From positions 1 through 64,000 of the forward strand of contig JAQWUY010000018.1 in the NCBI GenBank assembly GCA_029250225.1: 64,000 bases of DNA, written 5' to 3'. Source of the DNA: Alphaproteobacteria bacterium (lineage in GTDB: Bacteria > Pseudomonadota > Alphaproteobacteria > JAQWUY01). Below the pieces are notes generated by a model that saw nothing but the letters and a program-made list of their open reading frames with translations, had not been told where the DNA came from and did no database searches. Made by a program: the position numbers and the translations under genes. Within the stretch, counting starts at the first letter, position 1. Each line of letters starts with the position of its first letter. Positions 654 through 10,792 of this stretch are shown here, in pieces.

Positions 654-1922
654 TTATACCTTTTTATAAGATACAGTTTCATAATCAAACAAAATTATTT
701 CTTTATTTGAAAAATATTTTATAGCTTTATTGTATGTTTTTTGTTTTGCACTTGATGAACTTGATATATATACTGTTTCAACATTACTATCATTTATTTT
801 ATTTAAAATATGAGAATCATTATCATCAAGAGAACTACCAAATATAACTATTTTACCAGTTAAACTAGATAATTTATTAAATCCTCGTCTTAAATATTGA
901 TTTTCATTAATAGCTTGTTCTTTTTCTTGACTCTCACCTTTTAAAACACAAATTATATCACTTTTATCATTGTTAATAATTTCTTCTAGTTTATTATGTA
1001 AAGATTTATTTTGAGAGGCAGTTATTTTTTTAATTATTCCTTTATCTTTATATATATGAAAAGCACCATGTAAGAAAAATAAATTTTGAATCAATTCTCT
1101 TTCAGGATTATATTCAGGAAAAAAACCATCTTCAAATTTTATATCTTTAGGTCTTGTTTTTTTACTTTTCCATAATAAATTACAAGCTTTTTCTAAATCA
1201 TTAATTTTATAAATTTTATTATTGATTTCATTTTTAAAAAAAGATTTTATATTAGATATAAAATCTGTTTTAGTTTGATTTTTTAATGGATATTCTATAC
1301 TAGAATCTTCCGTAAAAATTTTCAATTTTCCAGTTTCGTATGCTTCCTCTATTTTAGAATATATTTCATTTTTATTTGCATTCAAATCTTCCTGTTTAAA
1401 TAAATCTGTTCTTGTAAATGCAAGTGTAGTAGTATCATCTTTTTTAAAATTCATTAATAAAAGATATAAGAGAGGATCATAATTCAATGTAAAATAATTG
1501 GAAAAATTCTTTAATAGAAGATAAACGCCTTGTCTTTCAATATCATATACATTTTTTATGTTTTCTTTTACTATTGAATATGCGGATTTCATAAAATCAT
1601 ATTTTATTTTTTTTTCAAAAAAATTATGATAAAACTTTTCTTCATTATCATTTTTTACATTATTTTTTAAGTAATTTATTAATTTTTCTATATCATAATT
1701 TAATTTTTTTATATTAATTTTTTTATAATCAGTAAATTCTTGAGTCATTCTTTCAAAAATATTTTTATAACTTGTATTAACACAAAGAGAAGAATTAAAT
1801 CCATTCCCAAGCAAAAGATGATTTTCTGTAGTATTTTTAATATCTTCTAACATATCATTATATGATACTATTTTAACTTCATTATTATCATTTTCAACTA
1901 ATTTATTTTTTGCTATGGACAT
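654..1922 (-). CDS. DUF4917 family protein (SIR2-like fold)
   Basis: The 422-residue protein has the landmarks of DUF4917 in order: LLLGNGFN near residue 36 (the glycine-rich nucleotide loop), FTLNYDPLLYLLL near 145, LFFLHGAFHIY near 280, and VIFGSSLDDNDSHI near 360. These correspond to the GAGxS, TxNYD, LHG and GxSxxDxHI positions of SIR2-type NAD-binding proteins. SIR2-like proteins outside the deacetylases often act as NAD-consuming antiphage effectors; that role is inferred here. A second ATG codon at 1922 is 6 bases from GGGAGAG, whereas the one at 1925 is only 3 away, so 1922 is preferred. A promoter lies at 1960-1988. A small membrane protein gene follows. Confidence 0.8.
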   Translation of the reverse strand: MSIAKNKLVENDNNEVKIVSYNDMLEDIKNTTENHLLLGNGFNSSLCVNTSYKNIFERMTQEFTDYKKINIKKLNYDIEKLINYLKNNVKNDNEEKFYHNFFEKKIKYDFMKSAYSIVKENIKNVYDIERQGVYLLLKNFSNYFTLNYDPLLYLLLMNFKKDDTTTLAFTRTDLFKQEDLNANKNEIYSKIEEAYETGKLKIFTEDSSIEYPLKNQTKTDFISNIKSFFKNEINNKIYKINDLEKACNLLWKSKKTRPKDIKFEDGFFPEYNPERELIQNLFFLHGAFHIYKDKGIIKKITASQNKSLHNKLEEIINNDKSDIICVLKGESQEKEQAINENQYLRRGFNKLSSLTGKIVIFGSSLDDNDSHILNKINDSNVETVYISSSSSAKQKTYNKAIKYFSNKEIILFDYETVSYKKV

Positions 1923-1959
1923 CATTCTCTCCCTTTCTATTCAACTAATAGTTGAGAAA

Positions 1960-5483: not shown

Positions 5484-6113
5484 TTACTGAGATTTCCAAA
5501 GGATACGAGCTATCCATTTTATATTTCTATTTTCTATTTCATAAGTATCATTGCCATCTAGTGATTCTAGTATTATTTTATGAGTCATTAACTTTTTTAA
5601 TAAACAAACAAGGTTATCGTCATTTTTCATTGCAATAACAATTTTATCACCGCGACGAATATTATCACTCAATGTTACTATTAACTCATCACCTTTATTA
5701 TAAAAACCGCTATAATCATTAGAATTAATATTTACTATAAAAGAATCACCGTCTATTTCTGTGCTACTTAGCTGTTTTTCACGAAATTCTTTTTTCATTA
5801 TTCCAGTAGAAGAAATAAATGATTTATTAACTTGTAATTCACTAATTTTAATTTTTGGTAATTCCAATGTACCAACTTTATTATTATTTTTTATTAAATC
5901 AGCAAATTGCCCCATACTCATACCTGTAGTGCTGAGTATCTGAGATATACTTTCAGTTGTGGGCCAGCGACCGCGACCATCTTTACTGATTCTTTTTGAT
6001 TTATTAAATATTGTTGCATCCAACCCTGATTTTTTTGCTAAACCAGATGGTGTCATTCCGTTTATTTGCGCTAGCTTATCAATAGCATTCCATATTTCTT
6101 TGTGTTTTAACAT
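5484..6113 (-). CDS. Helix-turn-helix regulator with S24/LexA-like C-terminal domain
   Basis: The 209-residue protein starts at ATG 6113, 8 bases from AAGGT; an upstream extension has no ribosome binding site. Residues 1-75 are a DNA-binding domain of a conserved alphaproteobacterial family (IWNAIDKLAQINGMTPSGLAKKSGLD, FNKSKR, GRWPTTESI). The C-terminal domain ends ARILWKSQ, close to the usual ARIVWASQ. Aligning on the GD of NKGDELIV puts Asp where family members have the peptidase Ser, while the Lys position (LLKKL) is kept, so self-cleavage is unlikely. The family is chromosomal rather than a phage repressor. It is divergent from the phage-derived cassette and may control it. Confidence 0.85.
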   Translation of the reverse strand: MLKHKEIWNAIDKLAQINGMTPSGLAKKSGLDATIFNKSKRISKDGRGRWPTTESISQILSTTGMSMGQFADLIKNNNKVGTLELPKIKISELQVNKSFISSTGIMKKEFREKQLSSTEIDGDSFIVNINSNDYSGFYNKGDELIVTLSDNIRRGDKIVIAMKNDDNLVCLLKKLMTHKIILESLDGNDTYEIENRNIKWIARILWKSQ

Positions 6114-6265
6114 AAGTATTACCTTAATAATAATAGATAAAATTTTATTTTGTTCATAATTAGATAAACTAACAAAATTCATTTAATTTTTCAATTAAAA
6201 ATAGGAAAATAAGCATAGCTATTTTAGTCTAATAAATGTAATGTATAATAAAAAATCTACATTAT

Positions 6266-6280
6266 GTTCTAACTATGTTC
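6266..6280. promoter_or_regulatory. Alphaproteobacterial LexA-type site GTTC-N7-GTTC
   Basis: GTTC at 6266-6269 and GTTC at 6277-6280 are separated by exactly 7 bases, the alphaproteobacterial SOS box. It lies in the divergent region between the S24-like regulator and the portal cassette, 30 bases upstream of the cassette's -35. A GTTCN7GTTC match is expected about once per window of this composition by my rough estimate, so position rather than sequence makes it interesting. Confidence 0.4.
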
Positions 6281-6310
6281 TTATTCTAAGTATTTAGTCC
6301 TATTTTATTC

Positions 6311-6340
6311 TTGACACAATTACACTTTAAGGTTTATAAA
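6311..6340 (+). promoter_or_regulatory. Predicted promoter of the phage-derived cassette
   Basis: TTGACA (6311-6316), an 18-base spacer and TATAAA (6335-6340): one of the best sigma70-like promoters in the window. It ends about 20 bases before the AAAGGAG ribosome binding site of the first cassette gene. Confidence 0.65.
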
Positions 6341-6376
6341 GGTGACAACAAATAATCAAGAAAGGAGAATCTTAAT

Positions 6377-6718
6377 ATAAAAAATTTAAATACTAATGGG
6401 ACATTTAATAATGTTAAAGAAGCCTTGCACTGGGCAACAAGTATGATGGAGTTATCCCACCAAGGAGCAAAAATAAAATCAGGTCTTGGGTTGTATAATA
6501 GAAAATTTGAACCAATAGATATTCTTATCCCTTTATGGCGTTGTGTTAAATCAGGAAAATTACCGAAAAATACTGAACATATCATAGACAAATATTTCAA
6601 AGTAGGTATTAAGCCATCAGAAGCAAATAATGACTACATAATATGGAAAGAAATAATTGTACAATTAAAACCGATTTTAATTAAAAAAAATATAATAATA
6701 GGAGGAAATAATGAGTAA
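6377..6718 (+). CDS. Phage-cassette protein 1, probable AUA start
   Basis: I do not recognise this protein. The reading frame is open from 6356, but there is no in-frame ATG, GTG or TTG near the strong AAAGGAG at 6361-6367. The best placed codon is ATA at 6377, 9 bases downstream; the first standard start is TTG at 6425, without a ribosome binding site. From 6377 the product is 113 residues. The part encoded between 6377 and 6425 (NIKNLNTNGTFNNVKEAL) reads as normal protein and continues into HWATSMMELSHQG. The C-terminal half is basic and aromatic (WKEIIVQLKPILIKK). Its stop overlaps the next gene by 8 bases, so it belongs to the portal operon. A small accessory phage protein is the most likely identity. 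Confidence 0.6.
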   Translation: MKNLNTNGTFNNVKEALHWATSMMELSHQGAKIKSGLGLYNRKFEPIDILIPLWRCVKSGKLPKNTEHIIDKYFKVGIKPSEANNDYIIWKEIIVQLKPILIKKNIIIGGNNE

Positions 6719-7106
6719 TAATAAAAAATTAGTGAAAAATACAAAAGATAGTTCTTGTGATGCGTTGGTAATGTTTTGTGATTCATCACTAAGGTTTTTA
6801 AATTTTTTAAAACCGAAGTATAGACACTGTTTTGTAGCAATAAAATCGGAAAATGACTGGATTATTTACGAACCTTTATTAAATCGCACGGAAATTACAA
6901 TTTTAAGAAATAGCAAAGCTCTTGAAGTGCGTCGTTTATTTGAATCAATGGGTTGTAAAGTAGTAAGCACAAATTTAAATAGAAGTTATGTTGTAAAATT
7001 CTCGATGTTTTCACCATTCACTTGTGTAAAGGCGGTTGGTAAAGTTCTAGGAGTTAGTACAAAAGGAATAATCACACCATATCAATTATATAAAAAGTTA
7101 ATTTAG
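6711..7106 (+). CDS. Phage-cassette protein 2, putative permuted papain-like fold
   Basis: A 131-residue protein with AGGAGG 5 bases before its ATG. Two conserved-looking blocks stand out: KPKYRHCFVAIKSENDWIIY (about 43-62) and FSPFTCVKAVGKVLGVSTKG (about 101-120), ending TPYQLYKKLI. A His followed by a beta strand, then a Cys at the start of a helix near the C-terminus, resembles circularly permuted NlpC/P60-like (YiiX/LRAT-type) amidases. That comparison is by eye and unproven. It sits between protein 1 (8-base overlap) and the portal gene (11-base gap). A cell-wall-acting or connector-associated role would fit. Confidence 0.6.
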   Translation: MSNNKKLVKNTKDSSCDALVMFCDSSLRFLNFLKPKYRHCFVAIKSENDWIIYEPLLNRTEITILRNSKALEVRRLFESMGCKVVSTNLNRSYVVKFSMFSPFTCVKAVGKVLGVSTKGIITPYQLYKKLI

Positions 7107-7117
7107 ATAGGAGTAAT

Positions 7118-8587
7118 ATGTTGAATTCTAGTTATAAAAATGAAATACGAGATACTTTAAAAGATTATGAGAAAGCCAAAAGCAAGCATGCAAATTGGGT
7201 TGAATTATGGCGTGAATGTTATAATTTTACAAATCCAAATATTAGCAAAAAAAATAAATTTCCAATATATGATGCAACTGCACCGGATGCTGTTGACGAA
7301 CTAGCAGGCGTATTAATAAATGAGCTTTATCCATATACTAGTGATTGGGTTGAAATAAAAGATATTAACACCAAGGAATTACAACACGATGATATATCTA
7401 ACCAAGTAAGAAAAAACATTATGGAAGCGATAAGAACATCGAACTTCCAAGTTGAAATACATCAAATTATTATGGATTTAATAGTTGCCGGTACTGGGGT
7501 TATGTTAATTGAACAAGGTGATTTAAACAGTGATAATAAAATAAAATTTAATGCTCTAGACATACAAAATATTATTTTATCTGAAAAATCGCACGGACAA
7601 GTTGACGCGTTATATATTAATAAAACATTTTCATTTGATGAATTAATAACCAAGTATCCTAATGCCAAGGCATTTATTTCTTGTGAAAAAGAAAATTCAT
7701 ACAATGTAATAGAAACAATAAAACAAACAAATGGCAAATGGCAACTTGTCACTATTTTATTAAATGATAAAAAAAACCAAATCATAATGAAAACGGAGTA
7801 TGAAAACTCGCCTTTTGTGGTATTTCGCTGGCAAAAACAATCAGGAGAAGTTTATGGTCGTTCGCCAGTAATGAAGTCTTTACCTGATATAAAAACTGTT
7901 AATAAAATTGCAGAACTTACATTAAAAAATGCATCTATTAGTGTAACAGGTATATGGCAAGCAGATGATGATGGAGTATTAAACCCGAATAATATTCGTT
8001 TAGTTCCGGGGGCTATTATACCAAAAGCTGTTGGTTCAAATGGATTACAGCCATTAAAAAGCCCAGGTGAATTTAATTTATCAAATATGTTAATCGAACC
8101 ATTACAACAAAGAATTCGTAAAAGTCTATTGGCGGGTGTATTTACAACTAGCACACTAAGAACAGCGACCGAAGTTGCCGAACAAGCAATGCGTGGTAGA
8201 CAAATATTAAATTCTGTTTTCGAAAGAATAACGCAAGAAGCTATGATACCGATGATAAAAAGAATTGCAAATATATTAGTTAAGCAAGGAACTATTATAA
8301 ACCCAAAGCAACACAACTTATATATTGATGCAATATCCCCTAACGAAAGATTTAATAAACAACAAAAAGTTATGGTCGTAAAACAAGTTATTAAAGAATT
8401 AAAGCAACTAGACATAGATATATCAAATGTATTTGATGTAAAAGAAACATTGTTATGGTTATCAAGACAAATGGAATTACCGGATTCTATATTAATAAAT
8501 AACAATGATTTTATGCTAGAAAATTTAAACGATATCAATAATTTTGTTAGTAATCCACAGCAGGAATTATTAAATGAGCCATTGTAA
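7118..8587 (+). CDS. Podovirus-type portal / head-to-tail connecting protein
   Basis: The 489-residue protein resembles T7-like and BPP-1-like head-to-tail connecting proteins (portal ring through which DNA enters the capsid). The N-terminal WVELWRECYNFTNP, then IYDATAPDAVDELAGVLINEL (split helix block), FVVFRWQKQSGEVYGRSPV near residue 230, and TATEVAEQAMRGRQI near 350 followed by IKRIANILVKQG are in family order. Length is close to T7 gp8. AGGAG lies 4 bases before the ATG. The frame is intact over its full length, which argues for selection. No capsid, scaffold, terminase, tail or integrase gene lies nearby, which is unusual for a functional prophage. Confidence 0.88.
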   Translation: MLNSSYKNEIRDTLKDYEKAKSKHANWVELWRECYNFTNPNISKKNKFPIYDATAPDAVDELAGVLINELYPYTSDWVEIKDINTKELQHDDISNQVRKNIMEAIRTSNFQVEIHQIIMDLIVAGTGVMLIEQGDLNSDNKIKFNALDIQNIILSEKSHGQVDALYINKTFSFDELITKYPNAKAFISCEKENSYNVIETIKQTNGKWQLVTILLNDKKNQIIMKTEYENSPFVVFRWQKQSGEVYGRSPVMKSLPDIKTVNKIAELTLKNASISVTGIWQADDDGVLNPNNIRLVPGAIIPKAVGSNGLQPLKSPGEFNLSNMLIEPLQQRIRKSLLAGVFTTSTLRTATEVAEQAMRGRQILNSVFERITQEAMIPMIKRIANILVKQGTIINPKQHNLYIDAISPNERFNKQQKVMVVKQVIKELKQLDIDISNVFDVKETLLWLSRQMELPDSILINNNDFMLENLNDINNFVSNPQQELLNEPL

Positions 8588-8810
8588 ACTACCTTGGGGA
8601 AATGATAAAACACCTGAATATGATGATATAGAAAAAGCATTATTTAAAATATTTACATCAAAAGACGGTAAAATATTATGGCAATATCTTAAACACACTA
8701 TAATTGAAAATAATTCACAAGAAACAGATCCTATAAAAATACATATGAATAATGGTAAAAAAATATTAGTTATGCATTTAAGAAATTTAGCACAACGACA
8801 AGTGGGATAA
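8574..8810 (+). CDS. Bbp19-like phage protein
   Basis: A 78-residue protein overlapping the end of the portal gene by 14 bases. EYDDIEKALFKIFTSKDGKI, followed by WQYLKHTIIE and later KKILVMHLRNLAQRQ, matches the pattern of the short Bbp19-like proteins that accompany portal genes in BPP-1-like podoviruses (a residue-loss helix, DGxxxLxxL, and a C-terminal helix). Function is unknown. It closes the cassette: a strong hairpin terminator begins 7 bases after the stop. Confidence 0.75.
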   Translation: MSHCKLPWGNDKTPEYDDIEKALFKIFTSKDGKILWQYLKHTIIENNSQETDPIKIHMNNGKKILVMHLRNLAQRQVG

Positions 8811-8816
8811 ATAAAA

Positions 8817-8855
8817 GAAAAATGCGAGTATACAATTAGTATATTCGCATTTTTC
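8817..8855. terminator. Bidirectional terminator between the portal cassette and asd
   Basis: A 17-base-pair inverted repeat (GAAAAATGCGA... / ...TCGCATTTTTC) with a 5-base loop at 8834-8838 and one G-U pair. The A- and T-rich outer parts of the arms supply U tracts on both strands, so it can end both the plus-strand cassette and the converging asd gene. Confidence 0.9.
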
Positions 8856-8877
8856 TTTGTAAGAGATAATTATTAAT

Positions 8878-9888: not shown

Positions 9889-10027
9889 AATCAATCTCCA
9901 TATACTTTTATTTTTAATGTATTTTTCGAGTATTTATTCTTTAACCCTTAATAAACACATAGATATAATAATAACCTAGATAAAGAGTACAAATCAATAA
10001 TATTTTATTTAATATTTTTTAACTATT

Positions 10028-10792
10028 TTAATTCCAATATTTAGACAACCATTTACAAGGTTTAGATGATTTAAATATATTTTTTTTATACCCTTTTATA
10101 GCTTGATTAGGCAAAGGATGGCCGTGGAAAACTAGTATTCGCATATCATCAGGTTTTTTAGGTGTTAAAAATAAATTTAACGGGAATAAATAACAACAAT
10201 TCCTTTTGAAAGAACAAATCCATTGTGGCTTCCAAAATACAGTTTCATTTCTTAATACCCAAGAAACATACTGTTGTTCAATGCGAAAATTGTTTAATGC
10301 CCACTGAGTATTTTTTGAAAAATGCTCGAAGACTTTACTATGTTGTTTAGGATTAAACCTAAACACAGATGTATTTCCAACACGGCCATCACGCCATAAC
10401 ATAACTTTTGAACGTCGTTTTTCTAGCCAATCCTGAATAACAACAAATTTTCCTTTTTGATATTCAAATAAATCGTCTAATTTACCGGTAATAACAACAT
10501 CAAGATCAAGAAATATTACATCACCATCTAAATCAGCAATATCTGGCTTAAATAATCCTACTTTTCGCCAAGTTTCCCCACCTTTAATAGAATCAAATTT
10601 ATTTTCATCAAAACCAGTATCAGGCAAAGGATATATTTCAACCCTTTTATCAATTCCCTTTTTATTATCTGTTAAACAGACAAAGCGAAAATCTGCATCC
10701 ATATTATTATCGACACCGTTAAATAATCGGTTAACATATTCGCAACCGTATTTTTTGCCCCATTTAATACATAAAAATGTTGGTTTTGTCAT
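10028..10792 (-). CDS. Putative glycosyltransferase, GT-A type
   Basis: A 254-residue cytoplasmic protein. The N-terminus reads TFLCIKWGKKYGCEYVNRLF, a beta strand and loop typical of nucleotide-sugar binding; GDVIFLDLDVVITGKLDDLF (about 89-108) contains the DxD metal motif of GT-A enzymes; a later FHGHPLPNQA element follows a region rich in Trp and aromatic residues. It resembles small glycosyltransferases of surface polysaccharide synthesis in Alphaproteobacteria. The donor and acceptor cannot be read from sequence. It stands alone between infC and asd. Confidence 0.75.
   Translation of the reverse strand: MTKPTFLCIKWGKKYGCEYVNRLFNGVDNNMDADFRFVCLTDNKKGIDKRVEIYPLPDTGFDENKFDSIKGGETWRKVGLFKPDIADLDGDVIFLDLDVVITGKLDDLFEYQKGKFVVIQDWLEKRRSKVMLWRDGRVGNTSVFRFNPKQHSKVFEHFSKNTQWALNNFRIEQQYVSWVLRNETVFWKPQWICSFKRNCCYLFPLNLFLTPKKPDDMRILVFHGHPLPNQAIKGYKKNIFKSSKPCKWLSKYWN

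Follow-up and report, generated by a model that had tools for sequence, protein, structure and literature searches.

A portal-protein operon as a probable part of a dispersed, podovirus-derived gene transfer agent in an alphaproteobacterial genome

The portal operon and its control signals

The window analysed here, a 64,000-nucleotide stretch of contig JAQWUY010000018.1 from an alphaproteobacterium, contains a compact operon built around a portal (head-to-tail connector) protein, which is read divergently from an S24-type repressor gene. Nearly all other genes needed for a phage-like particle are located elsewhere in the same genome, and the operon is probably one component of a dispersed gene transfer agent (GTA) derived from a podovirus; GTAs are domesticated virus particles by which fragments of host DNA pass between cells. 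The following features make up the locus:

5484-6182, minus strand: divergent S24-type repressor gene (Pfam Peptidase_S24 PF00717, E 4e-06), counted from the first ATG of its open reading frame (ORF) at 6182
6266-6280, plus strand: LexA box GTTCTAACTATGTTC, an exact match to GTTC-N7-GTTC
6311-6340, plus strand: sigma-70-type promoter read from the sequence (TTGACA at 6311-6316, TATAAA at 6335-6340)
6377-6718, plus strand: small1, a conserved helical protein without assigned function, with a probable ATA start at 6377
6711-7106, plus strand: small2, 131 amino acids, with H39, C40 and C105 invariant in the alignment of its homologues
7118-8587, plus strand: portal protein, 489 amino acids (Pfam Head-tail_con PF12236, PHROG 332)
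8574-8810, plus strand: Bbp19-like protein, 78 amino acids, recognised with a profile from relatives
8814-8858, both directions: bidirectional intrinsic terminator with a 20-bp perfect stem and A and T flanks (folding energy -25.6 kcal/mol)

The portal gene is full length, matching PF12236 across nearly the whole model (E 4.6e-72) and PHROG 332 with E 2.5e-72. The four plus-strand ORFs (6425-6718, 6711-7106, 7118-8587 and 8574-8810) either overlap or are spaced by 11 bp. Searched singly, small1, small2 and the Bbp19-like protein have no Pfam or PHROG match of their own. Profiles built from relatives detect homologues of small1 and small2 at 140 and 159 of 172 related loci, respectively, and a Bbp19-like homologue lies immediately 3´ of the portal gene at 144 of them. 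AlphaFold models of small1 and small2 (predicted local distance difference test scores of 89 and 90) retrieved no match in the PDB at E<0.001. A reading of small2 as a permuted papain-like hydrolase was dropped, since its sole basis was the H and C residues.

This arrangement bears out the initial annotation, which had described a four-gene cassette with a full-length portal, a promoter, an SOS-type site and a terminator; two of its boundaries required revision. The ORF of small1 at 6425-6718 is present, but its start is probably upstream of the first listed start (TTG, 6425) because homologous sequence reaches further upstream, and the ATA at 6377 behind AAGGAG is the likely start codon on sequence grounds. 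Limits of 6184-8860 enclose the four genes but omit the S24 repressor, which is part of the same unit. At 100 of the 172 related loci a homologue of this repressor is found, with few exceptions transcribed away from small1; their starts correspond to a position near MLKHKEIW, at about 6113 in the window, rather than to the first ATG at 6182.

The motif GTTC-N7-GTTC is the alphaproteobacterial LexA site (PMC3323433). Exact copies number only 15 in the readable genome, and others stand upstream of lexA, recA and ruvC (recognised by sequence), so a standard SOS regulon is present in this genome. A separate intergenic copy was observed on contig C11 at 79366, 76 bp upstream of an uncharacterised ORF of 385 amino acids (C11:78133-79290).

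Particle genes elsewhere in the genome

The genome to which the window belongs (G000) comprises 1,197,446 bases in 48 contigs, is 100% complete and was searched, with its contig stretches joined, using proteins of the related loci. The readable genome excludes 72 kb of contig C32 and every contig shorter than 3 kb, the letters of which read N. Three further groups of particle genes were located:

C11 61286-62056, minus strand: scaffold gene, alone (PF05396, E 2.8e-08), flanked by cobalamin-type genes on one side and a YeiH-like gene on the other
C38 30812-37769, minus strand: capsid, 85-amino-acid protein, tail tubes A and B, 110-amino-acid protein, fibre, 97-amino-acid protein and large terminase
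C38 26917-28158, plus strand: lysis group of spanin-like protein, endolysin (hydrolase PF07486) and holin (GTA_holin_3TM PF11351, E 2.1e-09)

The capsid matches Phage_capsid_2 (PF19821, E 3.7e-77), the tail tubes match PHROG 394 and 376, the fibre matches PHROG 1640 and the large terminase matches PHROG 38 (E 5.1e-78). The Walker (ATPase) and nuclease residues of the terminase occupy invariant alignment columns and are intact. The lysis group is separated from the terminase by 2.7 kb and three host genes; the particle genes therefore lie at three remote places in four transcription units. Each family profile finds a single ORF in the readable genome, except that the S24 profile also matches LexA. 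All particle ORFs remain open and in single copy, and the G+C content of the loci is 27-30%, near the 31% of the genome. The particle, packaging motor and lysis functions that a GTA requires are represented by portal, scaffold, capsid, tail tubes, fibre, terminase, spanin-like protein, endolysin and holin. The recipient-side genes ComEC and DprA are also present.

The initial annotation had noted no capsid, terminase, tail or lysis gene nearby, which is correct for the window but not for the genome: the search that it proposed for a podoviral terminase and major capsid found both on C38. Among the roles that it offered, a stand-alone portal ring, a decoy and a satellite all presuppose a lone portal and were set aside, given the rest of the particle set in the genome. 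Its further option, a part of a dispersed GTA-like system, is well supported by these remaining genes and by an operator common to three of the operons.

This operator, ATAAGAATANNATCCTAT (18 bases), lies upstream of the scaffold, capsid and lysis genes, between the TTGACA (-35) and -10 boxes. The readable genome contains three exact sites and none with one mismatch; at two mismatches, 4 sites were seen and 4.3 were expected. Because the motif was derived from these very sites, an independent control compared upstream regions in 47,278 pairs; only 23 pairs have an 18-mer in common when up to one mismatch is allowed, and 2 of these 23 come from the three pairs formed by these three operons. In other dispersed genomes, the best matches to a common operator do not exceed shuffled ones, and the claim is therefore restricted to this genome. 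The S24 protein would be the natural candidate to bind the operator.

The gene family in other Alphaproteobacteria and in phages

The same gene set, with the divergent S24 repressor, recurs as a family in other alphaproteobacterial genomes. A capsid and a portal of this type occur together in at least 56 of the 385 alphaproteobacterial genomes sampled, usually as a 12-19 kb block, and the terminase was likewise surveyed in this set. The typical order is S24 (divergent), small1, small2, portal, Bbp19-like protein, scaffold, capsid, 85-amino-acid protein, tail tubes, fibre, terminase and lysis genes, while in a gut-type group the terminase and lysis genes precede the portal. Named hosts include Thalassospira, Magnetospirillum, Azospirillum, Micavibrio, Ferrovibrio and CAG:239. 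An exact LexA box was found in 40 of 79 S24-small1 intergenic regions, compared with 0.5 expected by shuffling and with 14 of 790 random windows. Many such blocks are listed in IMG/VR as viral contigs; a search of PLSDB gave distant matches only, to plasmids of Acinetobacter, Klebsiella, Bordetella and Pseudomonas.

Among the 41 genomes with portal and capsid on one contig, the two genes lie within 20 kb of each other in 35, whereas 6 have them separated by 70 kb to 1.6 Mb, and several of the far-apart cases sit in single-contig chromosomes. Maps of the dispersed cases reveal a recurrent break between scaffold and capsid, which yields an S24-to-scaffold block and a capsid-to-lysis block. Since the split recurs in other genomes, the dispersal does not stem from a chance assembly error in a single genome. 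In two dispersed genomes (G378 and G300), the capsid also has a LexA box upstream. One contiguous, excisable genome, as expected of a temperate podophage, was thus not found, as the genes occupy three places in G000 and portal and capsid are distant in at least 6 other genomes.

Inheritance and selection were assessed in relatives. In family f90, a single portal is present in 28 of 43 genomes, with few exceptions to all-or-none presence by genus (11/11 in g272, 4/4 in g90 and 0/10 in g290). Every genus is monophyletic in the f90 portal tree, which requires 8 label changes, the fewest possible with 9 genera. Presence and tree together indicate chromosomal fixation and vertical inheritance in these relatives, as expected of a GTA. 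In family f105, the portal is present in 12 of 14 genomes, and the ratio of nonsynonymous to synonymous substitution rates (dN/dS) is 0.04-0.07 for close pairs and reaches 0.35 among more divergent ones, for which dS is about 1 or more. Location is conserved in one group of relatives, and the conserved unlabelled neighbours over many loci are mostly host genes. The contiguous 11.6-kb block L197 is flanked by host genes, and no replication or integration gene was noticed in it. Self-excision or packaging as a unit, which a GTA lacks, is likewise not apparent, with four operons at three places in G000 and a block such as L197 without a noticed integrase or replication gene. The initial annotation had named the rest of a recent prophage, adjacent in other strains, as a finding that would speak against domestication; many relatives are indeed contiguous, but the conserved location, the genus-wise inheritance and the lack of a detected replication or integration module accord better with domestication than with a recent prophage.

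The nearest phages are Pelagibacter podoviruses, and Hodr shares 43% identity in the capsid and 32% in the portal. The capsid and terminase trees were used for placement because the portal tree was unable to place the portal of this genome. In the capsid tree, the chromosomal capsids, including that of this genome, form one clade apart from the sequenced phages, with Hodr as sister. The terminase tree, which was built without Hodr since the profile did not pick up the Hodr terminase, groups this genome with the gut-type group. By their sequences, capsid and terminase place this genome in the chromosomal family.

Several side observations concern individual members of this family. The large terminase is split near residue 205-212 into ATPase and nuclease halves at L336 (G067), L337 (G187) and L338 (G359); the halves at L336 are located at 5800-6648 and 9975-10577. 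An oppositely oriented dnaB, a helix-turn-helix regulator and a gene of 224-226 amino acids separate the halves in an identical layout in the three species, which belong to one genus with 0.9-Mb genomes. If both halves cooperate, they would constitute a split packaging motor. In another lineage, at L339 (G281), an ORF for the ATPase half only (7240-7866) overlaps the portal gene, and the nuclease half was not found. A 103-amino-acid protein without a Pfam match directly precedes the large terminase at L197 (6956-7267) and at related gut-type loci (34 in total); it is a candidate small terminase subunit, of which no counterpart was recognised in the genome of the window. In G051 (L330/L331), the portal is in two pieces about 17 kb apart and the capsid block is 70 kb away; this copy is probably interrupted and decaying. 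MT838907 (MT838907.1, L340), an unverified 'bacteriophage' contig of 5,084 bases from human faeces in Mexico, carries a portal and a capsid of the family that are nested in the chromosomal clade, closest to gut-type Alphaproteobacteria, and may represent packaged bacterial DNA or contamination.

A probable gene transfer agent and its alternatives

Taken together, these features make it probable that the cassette is the portal and regulator operon of a dispersed, podovirus-derived GTA, which fits the evidence better than a prophage, a remnant, a satellite or a killing particle. The GTA is predicted to be SOS-controlled and is apparently undescribed in Alphaproteobacteria, as no podovirus-like GTA of this class was found in the open-access literature searched, which leaves out most subscription papers. 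From the genes we infer particle formation, packaging of host DNA, transfer and a benefit to the host. DNA damage would inactivate LexA and probably the S24 repressor too, and the portal operon would then be expressed together with the scaffold, capsid-tail-terminase and spanin-endolysin-holin operons. Heads would assemble on the portal from scaffold and capsid. As there is no phage genome to excise, the terminase would fill them with chromosomal DNA of the host, and tail tubes and fibre would then be attached. Holin, endolysin and spanin would lyse the cell, and the released particles would deliver DNA to kin equipped with ComEC and DprA.

Several points weigh against this interpretation. Control by an S24 repressor and LexA is typical of ordinary prophages too. 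No exact copy of ATAAGAATANNATCCTAT is present before the portal operon, the promoter of which contains two operator half-sites, a number that is not significant by itself because it is reached in 7% of intergenic regions. A small terminase subunit was not recognised in G000, and absences are provisional given the N-masked part of C32 (72 kb) and the masked contigs shorter than 3 kb. The portal of this genome forms a long branch near the phages Hodr and MEP301, with weak support that is prone to long-branch effects. Selection was gauged in relatives only, because the comparison set has no member of the order to which this genome belongs, and some relatives have broken copies, such as the two-piece portal of G051.

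An ancient prophage that was rearranged and is now decaying into scattered remains would account for the phage homologues of all main genes, nearest to Pelagibacter podoviruses, and for the split or partial genes in some relatives. Decay is nevertheless unlikely, as all genes stayed open and in single copy despite dispersal to three places, the catalytic residues of the terminase and one operator at three operons were kept, and in relatives selection is purifying and inheritance follows genus. A PBSX-like killing particle, in which phage-derived heads and lysis genes poison competitors and no DNA is passed on, would need the same parts, is compatible with SOS control and has been raised as a possibility for the podovirus-like FpGTA (PMC12946183). 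This explanation appears improbable, since a complete packaging motor, superfluous for a headless tail weapon, is retained and neither a toxin gene nor an immunity gene was noticed in the operons. A satellite that packages itself upon infection by another phage is very unlikely: the small contiguous 12-19 kb blocks without replication genes in relatives would suit such an element, but the genes at three places here are not packageable as one unit, no helper is needed because the set has its own capsid, portal, terminase, tail and lysis genes, and one group of relatives has a conserved location. Recruitment of the portal operon alone, for DNA passage or as a decoy, with the other phage genes coincidental, agrees with its physical separation and its own promoter and terminator, but is scarcely probable when portal and capsid are also separated in further genomes with every part retained and the remaining operons of this genome are under common control.

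A dispersed GTA of this type can be compared with described systems. The known GTAs go back to few independent domestication events, and it was only in 2026 that a podovirus-like one was first reported, from a Gram-positive gut bacterium. RcGTA-type agents (Rhodogtaviriformidae, with the related CcGTA of Caulobacter) resemble the present system in having vertically inherited, phage-derived particle genes at several loci in Alphaproteobacteria, and the holin here belongs to GTA_holin_3TM, a further likeness. RcGTA has an HK97-type capsid and a long tail; in contrast, the parts here are of podovirus type (Head-tail_con portal, Phage_capsid_2 capsid, and tail tubes A and B), and PF05065, the profile of the HK97-type capsid expected of Rhodogtaviriformidae, has no match in the readable genome. 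CcGTA is switched by GafYZ and RogA (PMC13236601), whereas LexA and the S24 repressor probably control the present genes.

FpGTA of Faecalibacterium, termed the first podovirus-like GTA element by its authors, comprises two operons of 10.5 and 5.5 kb about 125 kb apart, the second with fibre and lysis genes, in a Gram-positive host (PMC12946183). Compared by description, it is alike in its podovirus-like nature and its distant operons, and unlike in its Gram-positive host and the sizes of its operons. BhGTA/VSH-1 of Brachyspira and BaGTA of Bartonella, also compared by description, have genes at more than one locus, and the putative BhGTA terminase lies outside the main cluster (PMC9662315). 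BaGTA differs by its HK97-type capsid; no such capsid, which in Bartogtaviriformidae goes with a nearby terminase and a link to a run-off replication origin, was found in the readable genome, and no sign of run-off replication was noted, no test having been aimed at it. The Pelagibacter podophages Hodr (EXVC031P) and HTVC010P have homologous portals and capsids, and the order of portal, capsid and the small genes that follow is similar in Hodr. Unlike the present system, both are phages with complete 34-kb genomes; the window system has in addition a LexA box and an S24 repressor, and replication genes were not seen alongside. Azospirillum lipoferum 4B and sp. B510 release mitomycin-induced particles that contain roughly 10 kb of host DNA, tentatively credited by the authors to RcGTA-like genes within larger prophages (PMC3899980). 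These particles are SOS-inducible, as is predicted for the present system, the genus carries the present gene family (L191, L200), and by this analogy the 10-kb particles may derive from it.

Beyond this genome, we lean towards a further, independently domesticated GTA type in Alphaproteobacteria, which would be podovirus-derived, ancient (about 1/7 of the sampled species, in many families) and controlled by LexA and S24, with remote operons under a common operator in reduced genomes and a two-polypeptide terminase in one genus. Blocks that are currently classed as small prophages would then provide an extra route of gene exchange in Alphaproteobacteria, including cultured Thalassospira, Magnetospirillum and Azospirillum and gut lineages. 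Retention in a reduced genome of 1.2 Mb would suggest that the particle pays off despite genome reduction, and the frequency with which viruses become dispersed, co-regulated host organs would become testable by comparison.

Apart from this system, the window contains near the contig start a DUF4917 protein (654-1925, minus strand; PF16263, E 4.6e-19), to which no role is assigned.

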